From IMG/VR virus record IMGVR_UViG_3300035670_000931, positions 1 through 30,779 of that record: a stretch of 30,779 nt of DNA; one strand, written 5' to 3'. Origin of the DNA: a virus. The notes under the pieces were generated by a model, which did not search any database, was not told the origin of the DNA, and saw only the letters and a list, made by a program, of their open reading frames with translations. The position numbers were made by a program, and so were the translations under genes. Below, piece by piece: positions 13,856 to 30,779 of the stretch (position 1 is its first letter; each line of letters starts with the position of its first letter).

Positions 13856-14431
13856 ATGAACAAATTAAACACTTTATTATCATATCTTCTAAATGAAGGA
13901 AAAATGTCAGATTTCAGCGGTGGTCGCTCAGTCAGCGACAAAGTTGCTGAACTTTTCTTTGATGATGGACTTGATACAATCAATTATGTGCTTGCCGCCG
14001 TAGAAGATGGAGATCAGTCTGATGTCATCAGTAGCGTTGAACAAGCATATGAAGAATTTCTCTTACGTTATCATGATGATGAGCCAGAAATTCAATTAAC
14101 AGAAATGAGCGATGATTTAAAAAGTCTTGCTATCGAAGAGATCGCAAGAAGATTAATGGATCCAGCTCTTAATGAATCTGTTGAAGAAGAAAAAGGTTAT
14201 AGCGGTCCAAAGAAATATAAAAAGGTAGTTGGTTCTGGTAAAAAGAAAAGAACCGTTCGTTATGGTGCTAAAGGTTATTCTATAGCCCCAGGAACTTCAA
14301 AAGGAAACAGCTACTGTGCTCGTTCTTATGGCCAAATGAAAGATCATCCTTCAGCCGCCCGTGATCCTAATAGTCCCCTCAGACTATCACGTAAGAAATG
14401 GCGTTGCAGCGGCAAATATTCAAAAAAATGA
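13856..14431 (+). CDS. Basic protein with conserved SYCARS/LSRKKW domain and leader-like N-terminus
   Basis: This 191-residue protein has three parts. The first 14 residues (MNKLNTLLSYLLNE) resemble the amphipathic leader ending in L-x-E seen on three other proteins in this window. Residues about 17-110 are acidic and helical. The C-terminal 80 residues are basic and contain GYSIAPGTSKGNSYCARS and LSRKKWRCSGK, a pattern I recognise from many large phage proteins of unknown function; its two Cys and basic residues suggest nucleic-acid or metal binding. I prefer ATG 13856 over TTG 13844 because TTG directly follows the previous stop and lacks a ribosome site. The stop overlaps the start of the Nudix gene (ATGA), suggesting coupling. 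If the leader is cleaved, the mature protein would be carried in the head. Confidence 0.75.
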   Translation: MNKLNTLLSYLLNEGKMSDFSGGRSVSDKVAELFFDDGLDTINYVLAAVEDGDQSDVISSVEQAYEEFLLRYHDDEPEIQLTEMSDDLKSLAIEEIARRLMDPALNESVEEEKGYSGPKKYKKVVGSGKKKRTVRYGAKGYSIAPGTSKGNSYCARSYGQMKDHPSAARDPNSPLRLSRKKWRCSGKYSKK

Positions 14432-17667: not shown

Positions 17668-20600
17668 TCATCCTTGTCCAAAGTTGCTTGGATTGTTGAT
17701 TACGAAGTCCACAGAAAGGAACTCGAGGGTGCGGGTTGGTTGTAAGTAAATCTTACCACGGATTGTCTTGTTCTCAAAGTCCGCTTGAGTTGTTGTGCTT
17801 GTATCGATACGGACAAGGAAGCGATCAACACCCTTTTGATCCTGAACACGCTTAAGGATTGGATTAACAAGCTGAGAAAAGCGTGCAAGTGTCTCTGGAA
17901 GTGTTTGTTCAAAGAGGATGCGATTTGCAACTTGACGAACTTGACGACGAACAGAGAGAAGAAGACGACGAACGTTTACACGATCAAGAGCAGACTGTTG
18001 TGCATACATTGTCTTCTGACCCCAGATTATTAATCCTTCGGATCCGGCAAAAGATACGATTGGATTGATATCGACTTCATATAGATCATCCATATTTGTT
18101 CTAGAAAGTTGAACTGTAGAACGTTCAGTTGTCTCTAGGGCACCTCTTGCAAAGCCGGCTGGAGCAAACCATGGGAATGCTACAGAGTCATTATAAGAGA
18201 AGGCTCCGAGAACTGGAACTGAAGCTGGAACTTGACGTAATCTATTAGCTACATCATCACGCATAATCATATCTGGGAAATATGTTGCTCCAAAAGAGTT
18301 GTTAATATTTCTATCACGGAAGTTATTGACTGTGTAACGAACAGATGGGATTTGTGCTGAACTTGTTAACAAGTTTCCATCAGTATCAAATACTTCTAGA
18401 TCCATGATATAGATTGCATCAAATCTATTTTGAGCAACTTCAAGAGCCTTATCTGTAATGGCTGGATTACGGATACCTGGGATTGCAAAGAGTTGAACGT
18501 CAACTTCAGTTGCATCTGCCATTAAGCTAAGTGCCTTGTTATAAGCAACTACAGCAGAACCGGTTTGTTCGCCACGGCTTGTGAAATCAAGTTCTTCATT
18601 TACAGCTTGATTGGTTAACCAACGTTCGTTATAATTGAAGATATTAACACCATCAAAACCGCCTTGAAGATATACGTTAAACTTAGCAAGTTGACGAGTT
18701 GATGGATCTGCCAAATCTGCTACAGATAATCCTCTTGTTTGAACGGTTGGGCTCGTATCAACAGTTATTTGACCATCTCTTACATATTCCCAATCTATAA
18801 GACTATTAACGTCTGGCAATGTGTTATTTGGGAACAATGCTGTGCTGCCAGGCAATACACGATATACTACCTGAATATTCTCGAGAGAGAATGCATTCTT
18901 ATTAAATCTGTCGGCATCCAATATACCGTTTTGTGTGGTGTCTAGAACTCCCTCATTATCCATAACTACAAAGTTTTGCCATCCATTTTGGAAATTTGGG
19001 AAATAAGAAGCAAAGCTTTCAACGGTTGTTTCACGAAGAGTTGTTTTGTTAGGTTCTAGAGCAGATATTTTGCGTTCAAATTGAACGCCCCAATATAGTC
19101 CCTTGTCAGCCGTTTGATTTGGTGCAAGACCACGAATAAGATTTTGACGGAATGGAACCGGAATCTGAACTGTATTCCGGAATGGATTTGCTACTGTATA
19201 TCCAGTTGGATCAACTGCACTAAATGGAGCAAGAGGAGATGAACCTGATGTTACTAAATGAGCAGGACCACGGAAACCTACCGGTAGAGCTGTTGGGTCA
19301 ACATCGGCGGCGTCTACTGCATCAGCTACTTCTATACGGATGTATTTGGAGTTATTCGGATATGTTCCTAATGTTATTAATTTTGTAGCACCATCTTCTG
19401 CATCAAAGTTATAGAATGTATTATAATCACCAATAACACGTGCAATGTAATTTGGTGAAGATGGATCTAGCGTCAAACCACGGAACGCCTCCAGAACAAC
19501 TTTATTCTTGTCGTTATCTGCAAAATCTCTTACAAGAAGATCGAAACGCCCATAGAGATAAACATCAGAAAGACTTGGCGTGATATTCTCTAGAGAAATT
19601 TTAACTTTATTATTTGCATATACGCCATCATCTAGAGAGTGAATCCGGAAAAGATTAACTGGCTTGCCGCCGAACTTTTGAGAAGTAATCCATGGGCTCT
19701 TTGGCGTGCGGTAACGATCTTCGAAGTTCTCATAGTTAGGAGCAGTTGTAGAGCCGCTATTTCTAGCTTGAGAACCTGTAATAAGGAATGCTACGTTTTC
19801 ATATCCAGCAGCTCTTAAAGTGAGAACTTCTGTAGAACCAGAAATTACAGAAGAACCGGTTGGAACAGCAAACGTTGGATGAATAACCCAATCTGTTTGC
19901 AAGAGATATCCAGCTTGTTCAAGCTTAAGTGGATCTCTGTTGAAGATAAGTCCGAAATAGTTTGGAGCTTCTATGTCGAAGGATGCAGTTACTACGCTTG
20001 GATACATTGGATCTGTGTTTGTAAGACCGTTAATTAACATAACGAATTCTTGCAAACTGCCATTAAGATTTACAGAGCCCGTGACTCCGCCGCCAGGAGT
20101 TGCTGTGCTTGGATCCGCAGCATTTGCCGGCGCAAAAGCGGAAGATAATGTAAGCAACGTTCCAGAAGCAGCAAACAAAACGCCACGAATAACTGGGACG
20201 CCGCTGGCTGGAAGACCAGCTTCTGTAAAGATAGAAGAACTTACTATCTCTGAACCAGAAGTTTCATACTGACTCATGAAAGCGCCAAGGAAGTATGTTC
20301 TTCCAAGTTCATTTCCTGCTGTTGCAAATTCAGAATCTCCTAATTCACCAGCATAACCGCCCCAATATTGTGGAATCTGTCCGCCTACTACGAATCCGGC
20401 ACCTTCTACTTTTCCTATATTGCCACCAGCGGCATCAGCATCTACTGTTCTTTTGCTGCCGCCACCGGCACCTAATACTCTAATAAACGTGGCGGCTTGA
20501 GCGTTTCTTAACCACTCAGATACAGCTAACGGACCCACATATACATCATTAGATGTTTCTCCAAACGTTGCTTGGAAATCGTTATATGTGGCTACTGTCG

Positions 20601-20736
20601 TTGGAACAAATGCTGGACCTGCAATTGCAGTACCTATGACGCCCGCAGGGATTCCAGATGGCTGGATTGCTGTAGGACCAGTTAGGTTTATTGTTCTTGC
20701 TGATACGCCTGCTGATTTAAATGATATCTGAGTCAT
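17668..20736 (-). CDS. Tail sheath protein, second copy
   Basis: This 1022-residue protein is a contractile tail sheath subunit. The N-terminus 'GIPAGVIGTAIAGPAFVPTTVATYNDFQATFG' followed by 'AATFIRVLGAG' is the typical sheath start. The C-terminal 130 residues (VNVRRLLLSVRRQVRQVANR, LVNPILKRVQDQKGV, GKIYLQPTRTLEFLSVDFVI) match the conserved sheath C-domain that bears the interlocking arms. The central region is extended with Ser/Gly-rich segments; T4 gp18 has 659 residues. It is a clear paralogue of the gene immediately upstream, separated by 49 bases that hold an AAGG ribosome site. The next gene starts 6 bases after its stop. Conservation of both termini suggests it is functional rather than a decaying copy. 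Confidence 0.93.
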   Translation of the reverse strand: MTQISFKSAGVSARTINLTGPTAIQPSGIPAGVIGTAIAGPAFVPTTVATYNDFQATFGETSNDVYVGPLAVSEWLRNAQAATFIRVLGAGGGSKRTVDADAAGGNIGKVEGAGFVVGGQIPQYWGGYAGELGDSEFATAGNELGRTYFLGAFMSQYETSGSEIVSSSIFTEAGLPASGVPVIRGVLFAASGTLLTLSSAFAPANAADPSTATPGGGVTGSVNLNGSLQEFVMLINGLTNTDPMYPSVVTASFDIEAPNYFGLIFNRDPLKLEQAGYLLQTDWVIHPTFAVPTGSSVISGSTEVLTLRAAGYENVAFLITGSQARNSGSTTAPNYENFEDRYRTPKSPWITSQKFGGKPVNLFRIHSLDDGVYANNKVKISLENITPSLSDVYLYGRFDLLVRDFADNDKNKVVLEAFRGLTLDPSSPNYIARVIGDYNTFYNFDAEDGATKLITLGTYPNNSKYIRIEVADAVDAADVDPTALPVGFRGPAHLVTSGSSPLAPFSAVDPTGYTVANPFRNTVQIPVPFRQNLIRGLAPNQTADKGLYWGVQFERKISALEPNKTTLRETTVESFASYFPNFQNGWQNFVVMDNEGVLDTTQNGILDADRFNKNAFSLENIQVVYRVLPGSTALFPNNTLPDVNSLIDWEYVRDGQITVDTSPTVQTRGLSVADLADPSTRQLAKFNVYLQGGFDGVNIFNYNERWLTNQAVNEELDFTSRGEQTGSAVVAYNKALSLMADATEVDVQLFAIPGIRNPAITDKALEVAQNRFDAIYIMDLEVFDTDGNLLTSSAQIPSVRYTVNNFRDRNINNSFGATYFPDMIMRDDVANRLRQVPASVPVLGAFSYNDSVAFPWFAPAGFARGALETTERSTVQLSRTNMDDLYEVDINPIVSFAGSEGLIIWGQKTMYAQQSALDRVNVRRLLLSVRRQVRQVANRILFEQTLPETLARFSQLVNPILKRVQDQKGVDRFLVRIDTSTTTQADFENKTIRGKIYLQPTRTLEFLSVDFVINNPSNFGQG

Positions 20737-20785: not shown

Positions 20786-23700
20786 TCAACCGAATTGAAC
20801 GCCTTCTCTCGTGATTATGAAGTCGATTGCAATGAATTCTACTGCCTTAACTGGAAGCAAGTAAATCTTAGCATTCATTCTATTATTTTCACGATCTAAG
20901 GCTGTATTGTTTGTTTCGTCACAGACAACCTTATATTGTCTTAAACCACCACGATTTTGGACCAATGATAGGATTGGAGAAACTTTAGCAACAAACTCTT
21001 GATAAAGAGACGGTGTAAGTTGTTGCCAGATTAATCTGTTGCCAACGTCTATTACTTGACGTTGAACGTCCATGATCATGCGTTGAACATTGATGCTATC
21101 TAGAGATGTTTGAGCACCATCAAGTGTCTTTTGTGCAAAGATTACGTAACCCTCATTTGGGAACTTGACGATTGGATTTACTCTTACAGCATATAACTTC
21201 TCACGTTCATTTTGATTTACTCTTGTTCTTGTAAGAGATACGAAGTTAAGTGCTGCACGATTAAACCCGGCTGGTGCGAACCAGGGGTAGGAAACCTTGT
21301 CATTATAACCTAAAGCAGCTAGAGAAGCTACAGTAGCCGGAACAGTTACTTTCTTTCCAGTAGATGGATCATTCATAACTACATCTGGGAAATAAGCTGC
21401 TATAAATGTATTATCGAGAGAACGTGCATCAAATGCATCAGCCGTTTGTTGAACATCAATATAAGAGCCCGTTCCAGATGTTTGTCCGTCAAATATTCTA
21501 TCTCCGGCTGAGTTATAGTTTGGAACGTCCATCATATAGAGAGCTAAACCATAACTAGATACTGCATCAGATGCATAGTCAGTTACAAACGGTTCACGTT
21601 GACCCGGGATTGCCAGTAGATTGATATTGGAAGCGATCGGATCTGTGATTATATTTGCTGCAACACGATAAGAGTTGATTTGATTATTTTCGATACCTAC
21701 ACCATTTTGATTGAAACTAAATCCTGGAGATACAAAACCTGACCATGAACCACCATCGGTTTCACCTGATGTTGATTTATCATCAAATCTTACAGCATGT
21801 TTATCTAGAATATTGACGCCATCAAATCCACCATACAATACTGTTGTAAACTTAGCGTAGTTATTGTATTTGTTAAACGTTATCGGCTGAGTTCCTTCAT
21901 GCACTAGTGTTGCAAACGTTACATCTCCATTTACGGTATATGTTGTTGGGTCAACAACGCCATTACGAACATATATAGCCTTTCTCATTTGAGATGCTAC
22001 AGTTCCAGTAAGTCCGCCAATTGTGCTTACGCCATTAACTGTAACACGTGCTAATGTAAACTTGTTGTTATTAAAGGAGTCTTTGAAAGAGCCAGTAACT
22101 AATACGTCAAGTTTTTCTACGCCAGCAAACTTTGTGGCAGAAGCAATGTATCTATTAATCTCATTATTAATGTTAACGTTTTCGACGTTATTGTTATTAC
22201 GTTCAAACTTAACACCCCAATAGAAGCGGCTATCAGCTATTTCTAGAGAGCCACTATTTCTTGTGGACTTATAACGGAATGGCATTGGAGGAACAATCGC
22301 TCCTTCACAACCAAACGTACTAGCAGATCCGCTGCCAGCAAGACGAAGTTCACCGGAAGAACCGCTTATGTCTGTTAATACAGGATTTGTATTAAGAGCA
22401 TCAACACCATGGAAACCAAATGGCAAACAAGTTGCTGGAACCATCTTTTGTTCTACCATATCGTTCATTACAACACGAATGTAATTTGATTTATTGGGGT
22501 ATTTACCGCTTCTAACAATTCTTCGGTCGCCTGGATCTTCAACATCGAAGTTATAATAAGCTTTTGCATCGCCAATTACTTTAGCAATATACTTTTCACT
22601 ATCCGGATTAAGACTAAGATCAGTAAACTGTTCAATTATTTCCGGATTTATGTCGTTATCATCAAATCTTCTAACAAGAAGAGAGAACGTTCCATATGGA
22701 TAGACTGGATTTGTTGAAGCTTGAAGATTTGCGATAGATATTTTGATCTTATCATTTGCATATCGACCATCATCAATCGATTCAACATGGAACAAATCAT
22801 ATTCTGTTACGCCATATGGCTGAGAAATAAACCCTGGTGATCTTGGAGTAGTGAAACGTGTATCATAACGTCCAAACAACTCAAGGAATTCTGTTGTTGG
22901 CAAACCGGAGTTGGCAGCAACGTTATCACTACCAGAGGCAATAAGAACACCGGATACTGTATTTTGAACTACAGTAGCAACTTCATCATCAACTGCATAA
23001 TCTAGATACAAATAATGTTGTTCCTCTTCAAATTTGGAAGGATCTGTATTGAGAAGCTTGGCAAAATATAAATCAGATGTTGGATTAAATGATGCAGAGA
23101 ATATTCTTACGCCAGTAAAACCATCGTCTACTCCATATGAGGCACCAAGAGATGTTGAAATTGCAATTTTGAAATAAGGTTCTTCTGAGCCGGCAGGAGT
23201 TGAATACACGGCTGTATCATCCATTAGTGAAGAAAATGATTCATTAGAACCAGACATAATCATAACTCTGGATCCGGATGCTGCAAATATTATACCACGG
23301 ACAAGATTTGCAAAGCCAGGATCCCCTGTGAAGCTATCATTGTCTGTAAAAATTGGAAATCCGGAAGGAGCACTTTCTCCGGGCTGTAATTCGTGACGTG
23401 CAACTAAAAACTGCACAGCACCTAGAGCTCTCGAACCTGCCCCGGCTGTAGTCCAATTAGAAGAACCTGATACTTTAAATCCCGCATTTTTGACAATTCC
23501 GGCAGTTTGTGTTGCGGTAATATCGGCTAAACTTGTATTTGCGCCTGCACCAAGAACTCTTACGAATGTTAAAGCAGAACGATTTTGCAAAAACTTTTCA
23601 ACAGCATATGGAGCTGGAATGCTTGGATCAAAACCACCAAACTTCGTATTGAAATCTGAAAAAGAACCTAAAGTATATGGAATAAATGCTGGTCCCTTTA

Positions 23701-23809
23701 TTGCTGCACCGATTACGCCACCTGGAATACCTGTAGGTAACACAACTCTAGCGGTTAGATCGATTTCACGATCATAAAAGCCTGGGAATTTAAAAATTTG
23801 ATCTGCCAT
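20786..23809 (-). CDS. Tail sheath protein, first copy
   Basis: This 1007-residue sheath subunit has the same layout as its neighbour: N-terminal PGFYDREIDL, 'GIPGGVIGAAIKGPAFIPYT', 'ALTFVRVLGAGANTS', central extension with many Ser/Gly/Asp residues, and the conserved C-domain (INVQRMIMDVQRQVIDVGNR, KVSPILSLVQNRGG, AKIYLLPVKAVEFIAIDFII). AAAGGA 10 bases before ATG 23809 is a good ribosome site. A 6-base stem hairpin lies just upstream. Sheath monomers polymerise around the gp19-like tube and contract on infection. The two copies differ throughout, so the duplication is old. They may be alternative subunits or may alternate in one sheath. Confidence 0.93.
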   Translation of the reverse strand: MADQIFKFPGFYDREIDLTARVVLPTGIPGGVIGAAIKGPAFIPYTLGSFSDFNTKFGGFDPSIPAPYAVEKFLQNRSALTFVRVLGAGANTSLADITATQTAGIVKNAGFKVSGSSNWTTAGAGSRALGAVQFLVARHELQPGESAPSGFPIFTDNDSFTGDPGFANLVRGIIFAASGSRVMIMSGSNESFSSLMDDTAVYSTPAGSEEPYFKIAISTSLGASYGVDDGFTGVRIFSASFNPTSDLYFAKLLNTDPSKFEEEQHYLYLDYAVDDEVATVVQNTVSGVLIASGSDNVAANSGLPTTEFLELFGRYDTRFTTPRSPGFISQPYGVTEYDLFHVESIDDGRYANDKIKISIANLQASTNPVYPYGTFSLLVRRFDDNDINPEIIEQFTDLSLNPDSEKYIAKVIGDAKAYYNFDVEDPGDRRIVRSGKYPNKSNYIRVVMNDMVEQKMVPATCLPFGFHGVDALNTNPVLTDISGSSGELRLAGSGSASTFGCEGAIVPPMPFRYKSTRNSGSLEIADSRFYWGVKFERNNNNVENVNINNEINRYIASATKFAGVEKLDVLVTGSFKDSFNNNKFTLARVTVNGVSTIGGLTGTVASQMRKAIYVRNGVVDPTTYTVNGDVTFATLVHEGTQPITFNKYNNYAKFTTVLYGGFDGVNILDKHAVRFDDKSTSGETDGGSWSGFVSPGFSFNQNGVGIENNQINSYRVAANIITDPIASNINLLAIPGQREPFVTDYASDAVSSYGLALYMMDVPNYNSAGDRIFDGQTSGTGSYIDVQQTADAFDARSLDNTFIAAYFPDVVMNDPSTGKKVTVPATVASLAALGYNDKVSYPWFAPAGFNRAALNFVSLTRTRVNQNEREKLYAVRVNPIVKFPNEGYVIFAQKTLDGAQTSLDSINVQRMIMDVQRQVIDVGNRLIWQQLTPSLYQEFVAKVSPILSLVQNRGGLRQYKVVCDETNNTALDRENNRMNAKIYLLPVKAVEFIAIDFIITREGVQFG

Positions 23810-25869: not shown

Positions 25870-26532
25870 TTAACCTACTACTTTCCAGCCAAACAAACTA
25901 TTACGTTTGCCATTTGCCAATTGGTTAAAAGAAGAAGGATTTAAATTATGAAGCTCGGCAAATTCTGTTAAATTAGTAATATTATCAAATATCTCACCAG
26001 ATGGTGAAACTATACTCCATGTTTTTTTCAATGATTGAGGACGAATTGATTTACCGTTTTTTAAACGCCAACCTTTATAAGTTTTTAATTTTCCATTAAT
26101 TAGAGAACTTAAATGTTCTTTGCGTAATCTATGTTTTCTGGCAAAATCGCACAAACCGGCAGCCAAAAAATATTCTGTGCCGTATTTGTCAATTAGACTA
26201 ACATTAAACGTTTTTTTAGGTGGACTTTCTCTGCCAATTTCTTTGCAAACGTTATAACAATGATTACCGTTATCCCAAAGAACGTTAACATATTTTTGTT
26301 CTATATTTTTTAACTCTGATTCATCACAATATTCAATAACAAAAAATTTAAAAACAGAAGGCATTTTATTATAAGCAGCTTGTAATTTGGGATTTGCGTG
26401 AGTTCCATTTTTAAGACAATAAAAATGTTGACTTTTTCTACGATTTAAATCATTGCTACTTCCAATATAAACGTTTCCGTTTTTTGTATTGACAATTTGA
26501 TAAATTCCAACTTGTGTTTGCAACGTCGTCAT
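25870..26532 (-). CDS. GIY-YIG homing endonuclease
   Basis: This 220-residue free-standing endonuclease makes site-specific DNA breaks that spread its own gene. The catalytic domain has G9-I-Y11, Y22-I-G24, R31/R32 and the metal-binding E78 (NIEQKY). The C-terminal half has two modular DNA-binding repeats of NUMOD type at about 121-157 and 182-220, each ending in 'NGK...GW[R/K]'. ATG 26532 has no Shine-Dalgarno sequence; an AT-rich leader and a GGCTT/AAGCC hairpin lie upstream, suggesting low or controlled translation. It sits between the 395-residue gene and the gp14-like gene and directly adjoins the latter, so it has probably inserted there. The flanks carry an 8-base inverted repeat (25861-25868 and 26579-26586). 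Confidence 0.93.
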   Translation of the reverse strand: MTTLQTQVGIYQIVNTKNGNVYIGSSNDLNRRKSQHFYCLKNGTHANPKLQAAYNKMPSVFKFFVIEYCDESELKNIEQKYVNVLWDNGNHCYNVCKEIGRESPPKKTFNVSLIDKYGTEYFLAAGLCDFARKHRLRKEHLSSLINGKLKTYKGWRLKNGKSIRPQSLKKTWSIVSPSGEIFDNITNLTEFAELHNLNPSSFNQLANGKRNSLFGWKVVG

Positions 26533-26607: not shown

Positions 26608-27795
26608 TCATTTATTATATCTCTCTCTTGCTGCTGCCAGTTCTCCAGGACCGACTTGCTTTCTTTGTTTACCATATGGCTCTCGTTCACCTCGGGGTTG
26701 AGCATTTCGGGCAGCGACCATATAACGTTGCACTAAATTATTATAGATTTCAAACAATCTTGTTAATGAACTTTCAACTTCTGGTGTGTCAAAACGATGC
26801 TTAAATTGATCAAGTGGCATGTTAGTTAATCCCACAGATCGTGAATATCCTGCCATTATTTTTTCTACAATTATTTTTATATTGGGTATTTTTTTTCCTT
26901 TTGTCACATAATCGGCTAAGAAATCACTCATTCTATTACCGAGTTCTTCTTCATCTTCAGATGATTGTTTGTAGGCAATCTCTGGTTCTTGGCTGGTATC
27001 AAATCCAAGTGGTCTATAGCTATACGTAGTCGCATCTTTAAAGTTCGGTTCTTGATTGTTTTCAGGACGCCGAGCCCAATATCTTCTTGCAATATGCCCC
27101 GGAGCAAACTTATCAGATGGCATTATAGAAAAATATATCTGGTTGGCTATCTTTTCTTTATCGGCTATCCGTATATCACCCATTTTATTTTCAAATTGAT
27201 CTAAAAACCAATATCGGAACTCCCTATCATCTCGGAGTTCAAAAGGCTTTTCAAAAACTTCATTTGGAAGTAAAAAGCCAAATTCTTGTTTAAATGCATT
27301 ATTGACCTTATCTCGCATCTTCTTATCAATAACAATTTTATTGAAACGTGAAGGAGTGATATCGTATTTTTTGCTTTTAAGAACACTTTCACGGCGTCTA
27401 CCAAAGGCTTTGGCTATATAACCGGTGAATGCGTGCATGAGATCATGGCTTTCATCTCCGGCACTCATAACGGGCATTGGAATAGTTGGATCTAAGTAAA
27501 GTTTAAAGCTATTCCCGCTATATTGAAATGACATACCTTTTTTTTGTTCGGTTGGGGTTGTCATTGGTGCCCAATTTTCTCCACGACCACCACCTCGTCC
27601 TCCAAGTCCACGACGTGCATCTATGATATCAATAGGTGAGGCACCCGGCAAGGCTTCGCCTTCATATATTAACTTATTGATTGCTTGAGCAAAAGCATAC
27701 ACTCCGACCATAGATGGAGACAAACGAGACATATCAATGTCTTCTGTCATTTCTTCTTTAATGATTAGTCGGATATATTCTTTTAATAGGTTCAT
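26608..27795 (-). CDS. Paralogue 2: unknown protein with cleavable-leader-like N-terminus and HDxxH motif
   Basis: This 395-residue protein is a tandem paralogue of the gene upstream. Residues 1-14 (MNLLKEYIRLIIKE) form an amphipathic leader ending in I-K-E, like T4 capsid-targeting peptides cut by the prohead protease after [L/I]-x-E. Both paralogues then share 'YAFAQAINKLIYEG', 'ALPG-x-x-PIDII', 'FKLYLDP' and a segment 'SAGDESHDLMHAFTG' followed by AK and RRRES, with H117, D118 and H121 as possible metal ligands. Shared C-terminal parts are 'DTPEVESSLTRLFEIYN' and 'QRYMVAARNAQP'. Its ATG overlaps the previous stop as ATGA. I do not recognise the family. If the leader is real the protein is packaged in the head. 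Confidence 0.8.
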   Translation of the reverse strand: MNLLKEYIRLIIKEEMTEDIDMSRLSPSMVGVYAFAQAINKLIYEGEALPGASPIDIIDARRGLGGRGGGRGENWAPMTTPTEQKKGMSFQYSGNSFKLYLDPTIPMPVMSAGDESHDLMHAFTGYIAKAFGRRRESVLKSKKYDITPSRFNKIVIDKKMRDKVNNAFKQEFGFLLPNEVFEKPFELRDDREFRYWFLDQFENKMGDIRIADKEKIANQIYFSIMPSDKFAPGHIARRYWARRPENNQEPNFKDATTYSYRPLGFDTSQEPEIAYKQSSEDEEELGNRMSDFLADYVTKGKKIPNIKIIVEKIMAGYSRSVGLTNMPLDQFKHRFDTPEVESSLTRLFEIYNNLVQRYMVAARNAQPRGEREPYGKQRKQVGPGELAAARERYNK

Positions 27796-29105
27796 CTTTT
27801 AGTTCTTCTTGCTGGGGCTTTTTTGGTTGGGCGAGCGGGTGCAGGAGTGGGGGTAGCAGGTGCTCTACGTCTTCTTACAGGAGCAGGCTGCGGGAATGGA
27901 GATGGTTGTGGTTTGGCTCTTAAGCTTTGTCTTGCTGCCTTTAATTGTGCTGGCGTAACTTGTTCACGATCATACGTATCGGCTCTTTTTGAAATCTGCT
28001 TACGAGATGGTTGTGCTGTAGATAAACCAACCGTATAACGCTGCAACATTTGATTATATAGTTCAAATAATCTTGTTATTGCTTTTCTTGCTTCTGGAGT
28101 ATCGTATCTTAGCTTATATTCTTCCGGCGTAATATTTCCTACGTTAACGCTTGGACTTGGAGCTCTTTTATAGGCACTAAATACTTGTTCAACCGCTTCT
28201 TTTCCAATAGGCTTTCCGTCTGCAACATTATCCCGAATAACAACGTTAATAATATTTCCAAACATTTCTTCATCTTCCATTGATTGTTTCCAAGAAATTT
28301 TACCAGGCGCATTTTTGCCTATTCTTGGTGCTCCGAAGTTGTCGGGATCTGCTGGATTAAGTTTTGCATCGGAAATATCAACATTTCCCCAATATTTGTG
28401 TCCAAAAATACCCGGCACAACACCGCCACCGTATACGGATTTCCATAATACAGCGCCAAGATGTCTGAGCGTAAGTATATTAATAGGATTTCCGTATATT
28501 TTAGCGTTCTTTTTCTTAATATTTGGCCAAACTGTTTGACCAAACCAATCGCCATATTCGTATGGGTCTTTATATTTAAATGTTTTTTCAAAAACTGAAT
28601 ATGGCAACTTATATCCAAACTTTTTGTCAAAACTGTCAGTAAACTTTGCAATTTCATCTTTTTTCAAAGTTATTTTATTGAATTTGGAAGGGGTGCCGCT
28701 ATATTGACCAGAAGCTTCAAGGCTTTCTCTTCTTCTGGCTATTGCTTTGGCAAGGTGTCCAGTAATCGTATGAATGATATCATGAGTTTCATCATCGGCA
28801 CTCATGAAAGTTTTTGACTTAGAAGGATCAATATATAATTTAAAAGTAGAGCCGGTATGTTGAAGGGATATGCCAGATTTTCTTTCTGTATCTGTTATCA
28901 TTGGAGCAGATTTTAAATCTTTTCCAGAACTAATAATGTCTATTGGCAAGGTTCCAGGCAATGCACCGCCTTCATAAATTAATTTATTTATAGCTTGAGC
29001 AAGAGCATATATGCCAAGCATATCTGGATGCAGACGCTTCAAATTTACGTCTTCATCCATAACTTCTTTAATGATTAAACTAATATATTCTTTTAAAAGG
29101 TTCAT
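27792..29105 (-). CDS. Paralogue 1: unknown protein with leader-like N-terminus, HDxxH motif and basic Pro/Arg tail
   Basis: This 437-residue protein begins MNLLKEYISLIIKE, nearly identical to its downstream paralogue. ATG 29105 is chosen over an upstream in-frame TTG because it matches the leader shared by three proteins. The core has 'YALAQAINKLIYEG', 'LPIDII' and SADDETHDIIHTITGH with H108, D109 and H112, then AKAIARRRES. The last 45 residues are rich in Pro, Ala, Arg and Lys (PVRRRRAPATP, PTKKAPARRTKR), like histone-H1-type tails, so it may bind packaged DNA; the paralogue lacks this tail. A purine-rich GAAGA precedes the ATG. It lies directly after the gp13-like neck gene. Its function is unknown; an internal head protein is inferred. 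Confidence 0.8.
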   Translation of the reverse strand: MNLLKEYISLIIKEVMDEDVNLKRLHPDMLGIYALAQAINKLIYEGGALPGTLPIDIISSGKDLKSAPMITDTERKSGISLQHTGSTFKLYIDPSKSKTFMSADDETHDIIHTITGHLAKAIARRRESLEASGQYSGTPSKFNKITLKKDEIAKFTDSFDKKFGYKLPYSVFEKTFKYKDPYEYGDWFGQTVWPNIKKKNAKIYGNPINILTLRHLGAVLWKSVYGGGVVPGIFGHKYWGNVDISDAKLNPADPDNFGAPRIGKNAPGKISWKQSMEDEEMFGNIINVVIRDNVADGKPIGKEAVEQVFSAYKRAPSPSVNVGNITPEEYKLRYDTPEARKAITRLFELYNQMLQRYTVGLSTAQPSRKQISKRADTYDREQVTPAQLKAARQSLRAKPQPSPFPQPAPVRRRRAPATPTPAPARPTKKAPARRTKR

Positions 29106-29169
29106 ATGTCTTCTTTTTTTTCTAATTGGTAGCGTTCCATTTATCAAACAATAGAGGGGACGTTTTGAC

Positions 29170-30441
29170 TCATCCTATAAACAGGTTATATTTTGCCGGC
29201 ATTGGTAGATGCTGCAACATTTTCATTTCATTTTCAGCTTTATTAGCTTGTATCTCTGAAAGCTTATCATAAGTAAGTGCGTCAAGTTTTGTTATAATAC
29301 CAGTATCACCAGTTAATAAATCTTTCTTATCTTCTCTCCCTTGAGTTATAAGGTCTTCACCATTAAGTTGTAATTCTGCATTTGGAATTGGAATGGACTT
29401 CATCTTGCTTCTTACCAAACCAAGGAGTTCTTTGCAAAGAGCTAGCGTATATAGAATAATCCAGTTTCTGCTCCATGGGTTAAGAGAAGAATACGCTATA
29501 AAGCCCATAGGAATGTTTGCAGGGCTGTTAACACCGAATATCACAGACGATGGTGTAGCAGGGTTCTGGAGGCTTCCAGACGCCTCTAATGAGCCGCTGA
29601 AGTATGTTCCCATGATGCCTGGATAGGCAGATGGAGGGAAGCCTACTCGGATCCATAATTTGTCATTATAGAATGGAATCATATTGTTTGGAGTTGGGAA
29701 TAAGCGAATAGAAGTGCCGGCTAGCTTATAAGAATAATGGGAACGGCGGACACGGGAAGCGGCGTCTAACATACTGGCTCTCAACACGTCTTCGAATAGG
29801 GGAAGAACATAGAAGCGTGTATCTGGAATATAAGATTCTACAGGTAATCCAGTTGCAATAAAGTTGGATGCAAGATTTGAGTTAAAGACATATTGAATTG
29901 GAGCATAATGATAAACTTCAAATACTTTCATACGTCCACGAATATCAAGAGAACCGGTGCCCATATAAGAAGAAAGAAGATTTCCATTTTGATCTTTTAA
30001 TTCTGTATAAAGATCATAATCCTGGCGTCCCATTTCTAACGTTATAGAACCAGAATAAGATTGAAGGGATTGACCATAGCCAACCTCAGAAGCATATGGC
30101 TCCGCTTGCCTTACAAGATATTCTAGATTTGGCTGAACGTAATTGTTAACAAGATTTAGATTATATTTGCCAGTTGCCGTATCGATGCTACCAGTAGGAG
30201 AACCAAGAAGATAAGACAAATTTGATTTAGCTTGATATTCGATCATGATAGCATTGAAGTATAAGGTCGCCTCTTCAAAACATGCCCAAATCATCTTTTT
30301 TGTGAGTTCTACACTTAATACATCTTCCCCAAGTTTTCTTAAAACAAAGGTAACGATCTTGTCTGCATCACTCTGGAAAGCTGGATCAGAGTCAAAGTAG
30401 CCAAATGGAGTAGGCTTCATCGTGGTATTAAATGTGCTCAT
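29170..30441 (-). CDS. Neck protein (T4 gp13-like)
   Basis: This 423-residue protein probably closes the filled head and receives the tail. The N-terminus 'PTPFGYFDSDPAFQSDADKIVTFVLRKLGEDVLSVEL' followed by 'FEEATLYFNAIMIEYQAKSNLS' is typical of gp13-type neck proteins of large myophages. The C-terminal part, including 'WSRNWIILYTLALCKELLGLVRSKMKSIPIPNAELQLNGEDLITQGREDK', is another family hallmark. I chose ATG 30441; ATG 30420, which begins MKPTPFGYF, is also possible. A TTG at 30474 is unlikely since it would overlap the divergent HAD gene. No strong Shine-Dalgarno sequence is seen. T4 gp13 has 309 residues. It is the first minus-strand gene in the window. Confidence 0.82.
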   Translation of the reverse strand: MSTFNTTMKPTPFGYFDSDPAFQSDADKIVTFVLRKLGEDVLSVELTKKMIWACFEEATLYFNAIMIEYQAKSNLSYLLGSPTGSIDTATGKYNLNLVNNYVQPNLEYLVRQAEPYASEVGYGQSLQSYSGSITLEMGRQDYDLYTELKDQNGNLLSSYMGTGSLDIRGRMKVFEVYHYAPIQYVFNSNLASNFIATGLPVESYIPDTRFYVLPLFEDVLRASMLDAASRVRRSHYSYKLAGTSIRLFPTPNNMIPFYNDKLWIRVGFPPSAYPGIMGTYFSGSLEASGSLQNPATPSSVIFGVNSPANIPMGFIAYSSLNPWSRNWIILYTLALCKELLGLVRSKMKSIPIPNAELQLNGEDLITQGREDKKDLLTGDTGIITKLDALTYDKLSEIQANKAENEMKMLQHLPMPAKYNLFIG

Positions 30442-30462
30442 AAAGCTAATTAGTATAGAATC

Positions 30463-30779
30463 ATGAGCAAGCAACTATTAAAAGAATATATTGCAGTCCT
30501 CATAAATGAGGCTTTAGATGGTGTTAGCAAGCTTCGTGTTTTTGATTTTGATGATACTCTTGTAAAAACCCATAGCAAAGTTCATGTTAAAAAAGCTAAT
30601 GGCGACGAACTTTGGCTCACGCCTGCCGAATATGCAGTCTATGATAAAGAAACTGGGGATGAATTTGATTATTCAGATTTCAGTAATGTAATCAATCCGG
30701 AGGCAATTCATTGGACACAAAATATATTGCAAAAAGTTATAAGCAAAAGAGGTCCAGGGGCGGCGGTTATATTAACAGC
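30463..30779 (+). CDS. HAD-family phosphatase-like protein with leader-like N-terminus, 3' end beyond window
   Basis: The first 105 codons of a rightward gene are present. Residues 1-16 (MSKQLLKEYIAVLINE) match the leader on the two paralogues and end in I-N-E. HAD motif I follows at once: VFDFDDTLVKT, in which the first Asp of D-x-D-D-T would be the nucleophile. Then come 'LTPAEYAVYDKETGDEFDYSDF' and 'INPEAIHW', which I recognise from a HAD group common in large phages, and 'AAVILTA', the likely motif II with Thr. HAD enzymes of this kind act on phosphates of nucleic acids or small molecules; the substrate is unknown. The ATG lies 21 bases from the divergent neck gene and lacks a clear ribosome site. 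Confidence 0.85.
   Translation, partial: MSKQLLKEYIAVLINEALDGVSKLRVFDFDDTLVKTHSKVHVKKANGDELWLTPAEYAVYDKETGDEFDYSDFSNVINPEAIHWTQNILQKVISKRGPGAAVILT

Follow-up and report, generated by a model that had tools for sequence, protein, structure and literature searches.

Why should proteins with unrelated bodies, encoded at one phage locus, begin with nearly the same short peptide? The question is raised by an IMG/VR record of 30,779 bases (the window, i.e., the whole stretch of DNA analyzed here), a fragment with the tail module of a giant myophage related to T4. A common N-terminal leader is found on three of its proteins, a HAD protein and two further proteins, here termed para1 and para2. The first-pass annotation had likened this leader to a capsid-targeting and cleavage signal. 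The features concerned are given below, with a slash marking a predicted cut.

Leader-bearing genes of the window

30463-30777, plus strand: ORF of the HAD protein, truncated at the contig end
30463..30510, plus strand: HAD leader MSKQLLKEYIAVLINE, predicted cut after Glu16 (INE/A)
30511..30777, plus strand: HAD phosphatase domain, truncated by the contig end; a full 187-aa homologue lies at L002:2117-2677 (contig G002)
29064..29105, minus strand: para1 leader MNLLKEYISLIIKE, ATG at 29105, predicted cut after Glu14
27792..29063, minus strand: para1 body, an HDxxH protein with a basic, Pro/Ala/Arg-rich C-terminal tail
27754..27795, minus strand: para2 leader MNLLKEYIRLIIKE, ATG at 27795, predicted cut after Glu14
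26608..27753, minus strand: para2 body, an HDxxH protein with one relative in contig G001 (84%)
13856..13897, plus strand: candidate further leader MNKLNTLLSYLLNE/G on ORF 13856-14431, a weaker match outside the confirmed set

The leaders end in INE in the HAD protein and in IKE in para1 and para2, and the body of the HAD protein is unrelated to those of the other two. The latter are full-length paralogues (44% identity) encoded in tandem, the TGA of para1 overlapping the ATG of para2; as they are paralogues, the independent evidence within the window is confined to the HAD/para pair. The HDxxH motif previously ascribed to them is present in both. A family search with the para1 body found no family, and the AlphaFold model of para2 is poor (pLDDT 54).

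The three leaders lie exactly at the positions originally reported. A leader matrix trained solely on the leaders of a 281-kb relative, G025, placed para2 first (24.9), para1 second (20.2), and the HAD protein third (16.0) among the 488 possible starts of the window. In a control of 300 residue shuffles, the best score over all starts averaged 8.2 and reached a maximum of 16.4, which places the HAD leader, taken alone, at roughly the 1-in-300 level.

Several further observations concern the surrounding genes. The ORF at 13856-14431 has a basic C terminus with Cys, adjoins a gene for a Nudix hydrolase, and lies on the strand opposite the tail genes. In place of the para1/para2 pair of the window, G001 has a single para2-type gene (L139 16388-17436). 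An inserted GIY-YIG homing endonuclease (25870-26532) separates the para2 gene of the window from its tail genes. Two adjoining tail sheath genes of ~1000 residues each are present both in the window (17668-20736 and 20786-23809) and in G025 (116849-123131).

Spread and conservation of the leader in related phages

Relatives of the window were gathered via homologues of the HAD protein (80 contigs). In G025 (280,913 bases), nine adjacent genes at 199,426-204,901, that of the HAD protein among them, carry the leader in front of differing bodies. These array leaders share a near-identical stretch of 14 residues, M-x-LLREYIRELL-x-E, in the form of M[NKRS]LLREY[IV] and, after it, a stretch that closes with [LI]xE (LLLKE in one member). 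An apparent tenth leader of this kind by the G025 protease (106,446) was discarded, as it is internal to a 280-aa ORF. All-against-all comparison of the G025 N termini yielded 184 similar pairs, versus 3 for internal segments, and recovered one cluster of 33 genes with leaders of two types, A (LLREYIRELLxE) and B (MKITKxQLRRIIKEE). A type B-like leader is found on 16 genes of the 309-kb contig G017 (31 pairs versus 4). As a point against a capsid-targeting leader, no leader cluster was detected at the same threshold in G020 and G031, both of which are large and code for the HAD protein and an S77 protease.

Further carriers, which the first-pass annotation had proposed to look for, proved to be numerous: a pattern scan of IMG/VR retrieved 37 stretches with type-A leaders, and 91 distinct type-A cases were found across the database. 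After removal of redundancy, the alignments of 72 type-A proteins and of 46 type-B or core-gene proteins are confined to the leader. Of the lineages with the HAD protein, those of the LLREY and MIKLK groups and groups related to them are the only ones in which it shares a leader with its neighbors; in one contig, for instance, the HAD leader is MIKLLDILLE and the adjoining gene starts with MIKLKDLLLE. In another large lineage, the HAD homologues (L022-L081) have a different leader, WNGxKVEFGKVYSNPxxxAFxxINEA, which is not common to neighbors within 10 kb, and G020, which is of that type, has no cluster genome-wide. Searches of cultured phages with para2, the HAD protein, and the leaders (tblastn) gave no match. 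The cultured Flavobacterium phage immuto, which has a related capsid protein, shows only a few leader-like N termini and no array, and our literature search found no proteomics paper on it.

Within the G025 array, nucleotide identity is 0.75 over the 42 nucleotides of the leader and ~0.3 just outside it, and a pS of 0.66 against a pN of 0.15 indicates purifying selection on the leader peptide. A functionless by-product of gene duplication or of recombination at start sites might at first seem to account for shared N termini, given the tandem arrays, members such as the three SVDPK paralogues of G025 whose likeness extends past the leader, and the paralogy of para1 and para2. However, this difference between pS and pN, together with the unrelated flanking DNA on both sides, leaves that explanation hardly any weight, and HAD homologues retain the cut site behind entirely different leaders: in those from other lineages, [LIVMF]xE stands just before the domain in 38 of 44, against 14.5 +/- 3.0 in shuffled sequences.

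The predicted cleavage site and the head genes

Among the 91 distinct type-A proteins, whose ORFs were picked on residues 2-8 alone, the predicted cut has Glu at P1 in 74, a position outside the DNA pattern that fetched the contigs, and L/I at P3 in 84, a position partly inside that pattern. P2 and P1' are variable, and no conservation is seen beyond them. Residue 14 closes the motif [LIVM]xE in 72/91, and any given position from 15 onward does so in at most 4/91; in 51/91 the motif also ends at residue 10, the T4 position. Against a protease-cleaved leader, Glu is absent from the modal position in 19% of the leaders, Gln occupies the cut position in the para2 homologue of G001, with VLSE four residues on, and [L/I]-x-E, the consensus of the T4 protease (PMC9026906), is a very short motif.

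In an alignment of capsid proteins, the known T4 cut, SFLTE/A, falls on ELLKE/T in G002, VLRE/S in G025, and VLKE/S in G017, with MLKE/Q and LLDE/A as further sites aligned to FLTE/A; leader ends and capsid propeptide ends thus look alike in these phages. T4 gp24 starts with MAKINELLRE/S and loses its N-terminal propeptide to gp21. The proposed resemblance to a capsid-targeting and cleavage signal is supported by a leader end that conforms to the T4 consensus and agrees with the cut site predicted for the phages' own capsid protein. A tag for stability or translation, such as an expression-boosting start region or a degron, would be in keeping with the invariable location of the leader at the extreme N terminus and with the many array genes that overlap via ATGA-type junctions; we regard it as very improbable, since it leaves unexplained the sharp [LI]xE end, the match to the capsid site, and an in-register likeness to the T4 tag (see below).

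A search of the window alone for an S77 protease was negative, the window being only a fragment. The contig G002 overlaps positions 28,347-30,779 at 95.9% nucleotide identity and beyond the overlap carries a T4-type head module composed of portal, S77 (gp21-like) prohead protease (E value of 1.8e-25), scaffold, and major capsid protein. The S77 protease was also found in G025 and in 8/8 searched type-A contigs of at least 119 kb; the 14 type-A contigs in which it was not found are all 101 kb or shorter. G014 (145 kb), whose genome may be incomplete, has the HAD protein with a leader and no S77 match. The first-pass annotation had held that a genome devoid of a prohead protease would speak against its reading; given the protease in G002, that objection falls away. 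Two more LLKEY-type leaders in G002, KLLKEYVSLLVRKILNE (L114:8516-9874) and LLLKEYIRLIVENVLLE (L115:13277-13807), bring the carriers in the phage of the window to at least five.

Shortly behind the S77 gene, in G002 and nearly all related genomes, lies a small gene whose product has a leader-like N terminus ending in [LI]xE (MKMTKSDFKGLIKECIRELIKE/G in G002; MAKITKRMLKGIVKECLVEILSE/G in another example), and in other lineages MIKLKNILRE/T or MIRLKNLLKE/S occurs at the same position. In T4-like phages, the region behind the protease gene encodes head-core and scaffold proteins. The N terminus of the G002 protease itself, MKLLKEFKEFNYEIIKE, resembles the leader, and T4 gp21 has a consensus site near its own N terminus (LIE-9; PMC9026906). 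The gene immediately upstream of the S77 gene (L113:8864-9706; equivalents in L114, L116, L119, L121, L220, and L225) codes for a recurrent LLREY at about residue 200, which, lying inside the protein, is not a leader.

These head genes bear on a further alternative, namely, that the leader directs its protein to another compartment, such as a phage nucleus-like shell, the membrane, or the tail, and is left uncut by the prohead protease. Several bodies are nucleic acid enzymes that could be wanted at the site of replication. Nevertheless, conservation breaks off with the protease consensus, the motif agrees with the cut site of the capsid protein, leader-like N termini occur inside the head gene cluster, and the phages are of the T4 type with gp22-like scaffolds, with the tail genes of the window devoid of the leader; these features make another destination distinctly improbable.

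The recurrence of the tag on unrelated proteins, coupled with its apparent cut site for the head protease, suggests that it probably marks proteins for packing into the head and delivery into the bacterium. On the basis of sequence, the leaders are very probably T4-type capsid-targeting sequences that are removed by a protease. We infer a course of docking, cutting, presence in the virion, and ejection: the leader, as an amphipathic helix of ~14-16 residues, would dock the protein on the prohead's scaffold core, the S77 protease would cut it off after its terminal [L/I]-x-E, and the mature protein would remain among the packaged DNA and probably be ejected into the cell along with the genome. 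Injection, the weakest step of this reading, is likely, and for the proteins of the window in particular we lean toward ejection; a counterdefense role for them is somewhat less likely than not.

Predicted cargo and comparison with known head-packaged proteins

The complete HAD homologue in G002 matches a polynucleotide kinase family (PHROG_415; E value of 2.9e-9), and a match of the HAD protein to Pfam PNK3P is below the cutoff. The catalytic motif DxDxT takes the form DFDDT, and D28, D30, D31, T32, K140, D160, and D161 are invariant in 39 homologues. A model of the G002 homologue, which is 94% identical to the protein of the window, confidently displays a HAD fold (pLDDT of 90), ahead of which the leader forms an N-terminal helix of its own (residues 3-19), modeled with less confidence. 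Structure comparison recovered HAD phosphatases, Pnkp1 among them, as weak matches, with TM scores of ~0.5 in the PDB, and a sequence search of the PDB with the family retrieved none. Besides the PNK-like HAD, the bodies found behind a leader are, among others, a tRNA nucleotidyltransferase (E value of 5.8e-57), a DEDD exonuclease, a Zeta/AAA kinase, a phosphatidylserine decarboxylase, a DUF192 protein, and a protein with a weak match to ART-PolyVal; the majority of the leader-bearing bodies are without an assigned function.

The nature of this cargo weighs on the option that the leader indeed targets and is cut, with the proteins serving inside the prohead as factors for assembly or head maturation rather than as ejected effectors. 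In its favor are the leader-like N terminus encoded by the small gene of head-core type that follows the protease and the destruction of the T4 core proteins gp67 and gp68 in the prohead (PMC9026906). We consider it unlikely, as the tRNA nucleotidyltransferase, DEDD exonuclease, Zeta/AAA kinase, and phosphatidylserine decarboxylase have no evident role in assembly, and the leader-bearing bodies are diverse and lie in tandem arrays, as accessory genes do.

The closest precedent for ejected leader proteins is in T4. The capsid targeting sequence of its internal proteins IPI, IPII, and IPIII was reportedly described by Mullaney and Black in 1996. With the IPII/IPIII tag MKTYQEFIAE as the sole query, seven array leaders top the 361 N termini of G025. 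The tag is in register with MNLLREYIRE of that array, sharing the arrangement M1-E6-[FY]7-I8-x-E10; the leaders of the window have the E-Y-I core in common with it but not E10. Genetic studies on the T4 tag assign targeting to residues 4 and 7 and processing to residues 8 and 10 (PMC9026906). As in the phages studied here, a short N-terminal peptide ending in [L/I]-x-E is borne by divergent T4 proteins (PMC9026906, PMC3012670), which are diverse defense proteins in which the tag alone is conserved (PMC3012670): IPI inhibits a restriction enzyme, and IPIII is required on strain ECOR17 (PMC9391042). Both settings also combine an S77 protease with T4-type head genes. The leaders differ from the T4 tag in having 14-16 residues versus 10, i.e., one more helical turn and often two potential cut sites, and they are carried by at least 10 genes in arrays, versus three in T4, with enzymes as cargo and two leader types in one phage.

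Other systems share single aspects of this arrangement. T4 Alt is an injected, head-packaged enzyme, an ADP-ribosyltransferase, whose N-terminal propeptide is removed by gp21, and the leader protein with the weak ART-PolyVal match (L188:2713-3216) recalls it; in contrast, the Alt propeptide has 7 residues, and no sequence relation of Alt to the proteins of the window was found. In phage SPN3US, gp53 and gp54 are diverged proteins with an identical 15-residue N terminus that has protease motifs and is processed by the prohead protease, but in SPN3US and other giant phages the ejection proteins have the motif A-x-E and mostly propeptides of >100 residues, in a head biology of the phiKZ type, for which no gp22 is confirmed (PMC5694885). 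Polyvalent proteins, predicted to be injected multienzyme proteins (Iyer et al. 2017, PMC5512222), likewise unite diverse enzymatic domains that are predicted to travel in the virion and to be delivered as infection starts; they are single fused proteins, whereas here separate polypeptides each have their own leader. A related HAD domain occurs inside large multidomain proteins of uncultured phages. By analogy, the leader arrays may embody the polyvalent-protein idea in separate polypeptides.

A broader and somewhat unlikely proposal is that of a modular head-packaged arsenal, in which any enzyme acquired behind a leader would become virion cargo and leader dialects would track the head core of each phage. 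This might include an apparent nucleic acid and tRNA repair set (the PNK-type HAD phosphatase, a CCA-adding tRNA nucleotidyltransferase, a P-loop kinase, and a DEDD exonuclease) acting against RNA-cutting defenses at time zero.

The principle is already known from T4; what appears to be new is the scale, the enzyme cargo, and the lineage-specific leader dialects. Our search of open-access full texts found nothing on this leader or on MKITK-type leaders and no description of arrays of at least 10 genes per phage, of 91 distinct type-A bodies, of enzyme cargo, of two leader types per phage, or of lineage dialects. If the reading is correct, the injected proteins of uncultured giant phages could be recognized in the genome from a leader that closes with [LI]xE, and dozens of so far unannotated ORFs per genome would become predicted effectors delivered by the virion. 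The internal-protein strategy of T4, known from three small proteins, would then be used far more widely and with enzymes, and the leader would provide a natural tag, perhaps a transferable one, by which large phage heads could be loaded with proteins.

We also observed a domain starting with AIGQCYPHAVKMA or LATGMCFPFAYQKAEEW that directly follows the leader. It has a conserved Cys, no family was found for it, and its C-terminal fusions vary (tRNA nucleotidyltransferase or phosphatidylserine decarboxylase). It is found at the following loci:

L193:9526-11160
L203:2053-2835
L210:3662-4477
L216:3331-4455
L219:8139-10202
L188:2046-2402
L198:2870-3220
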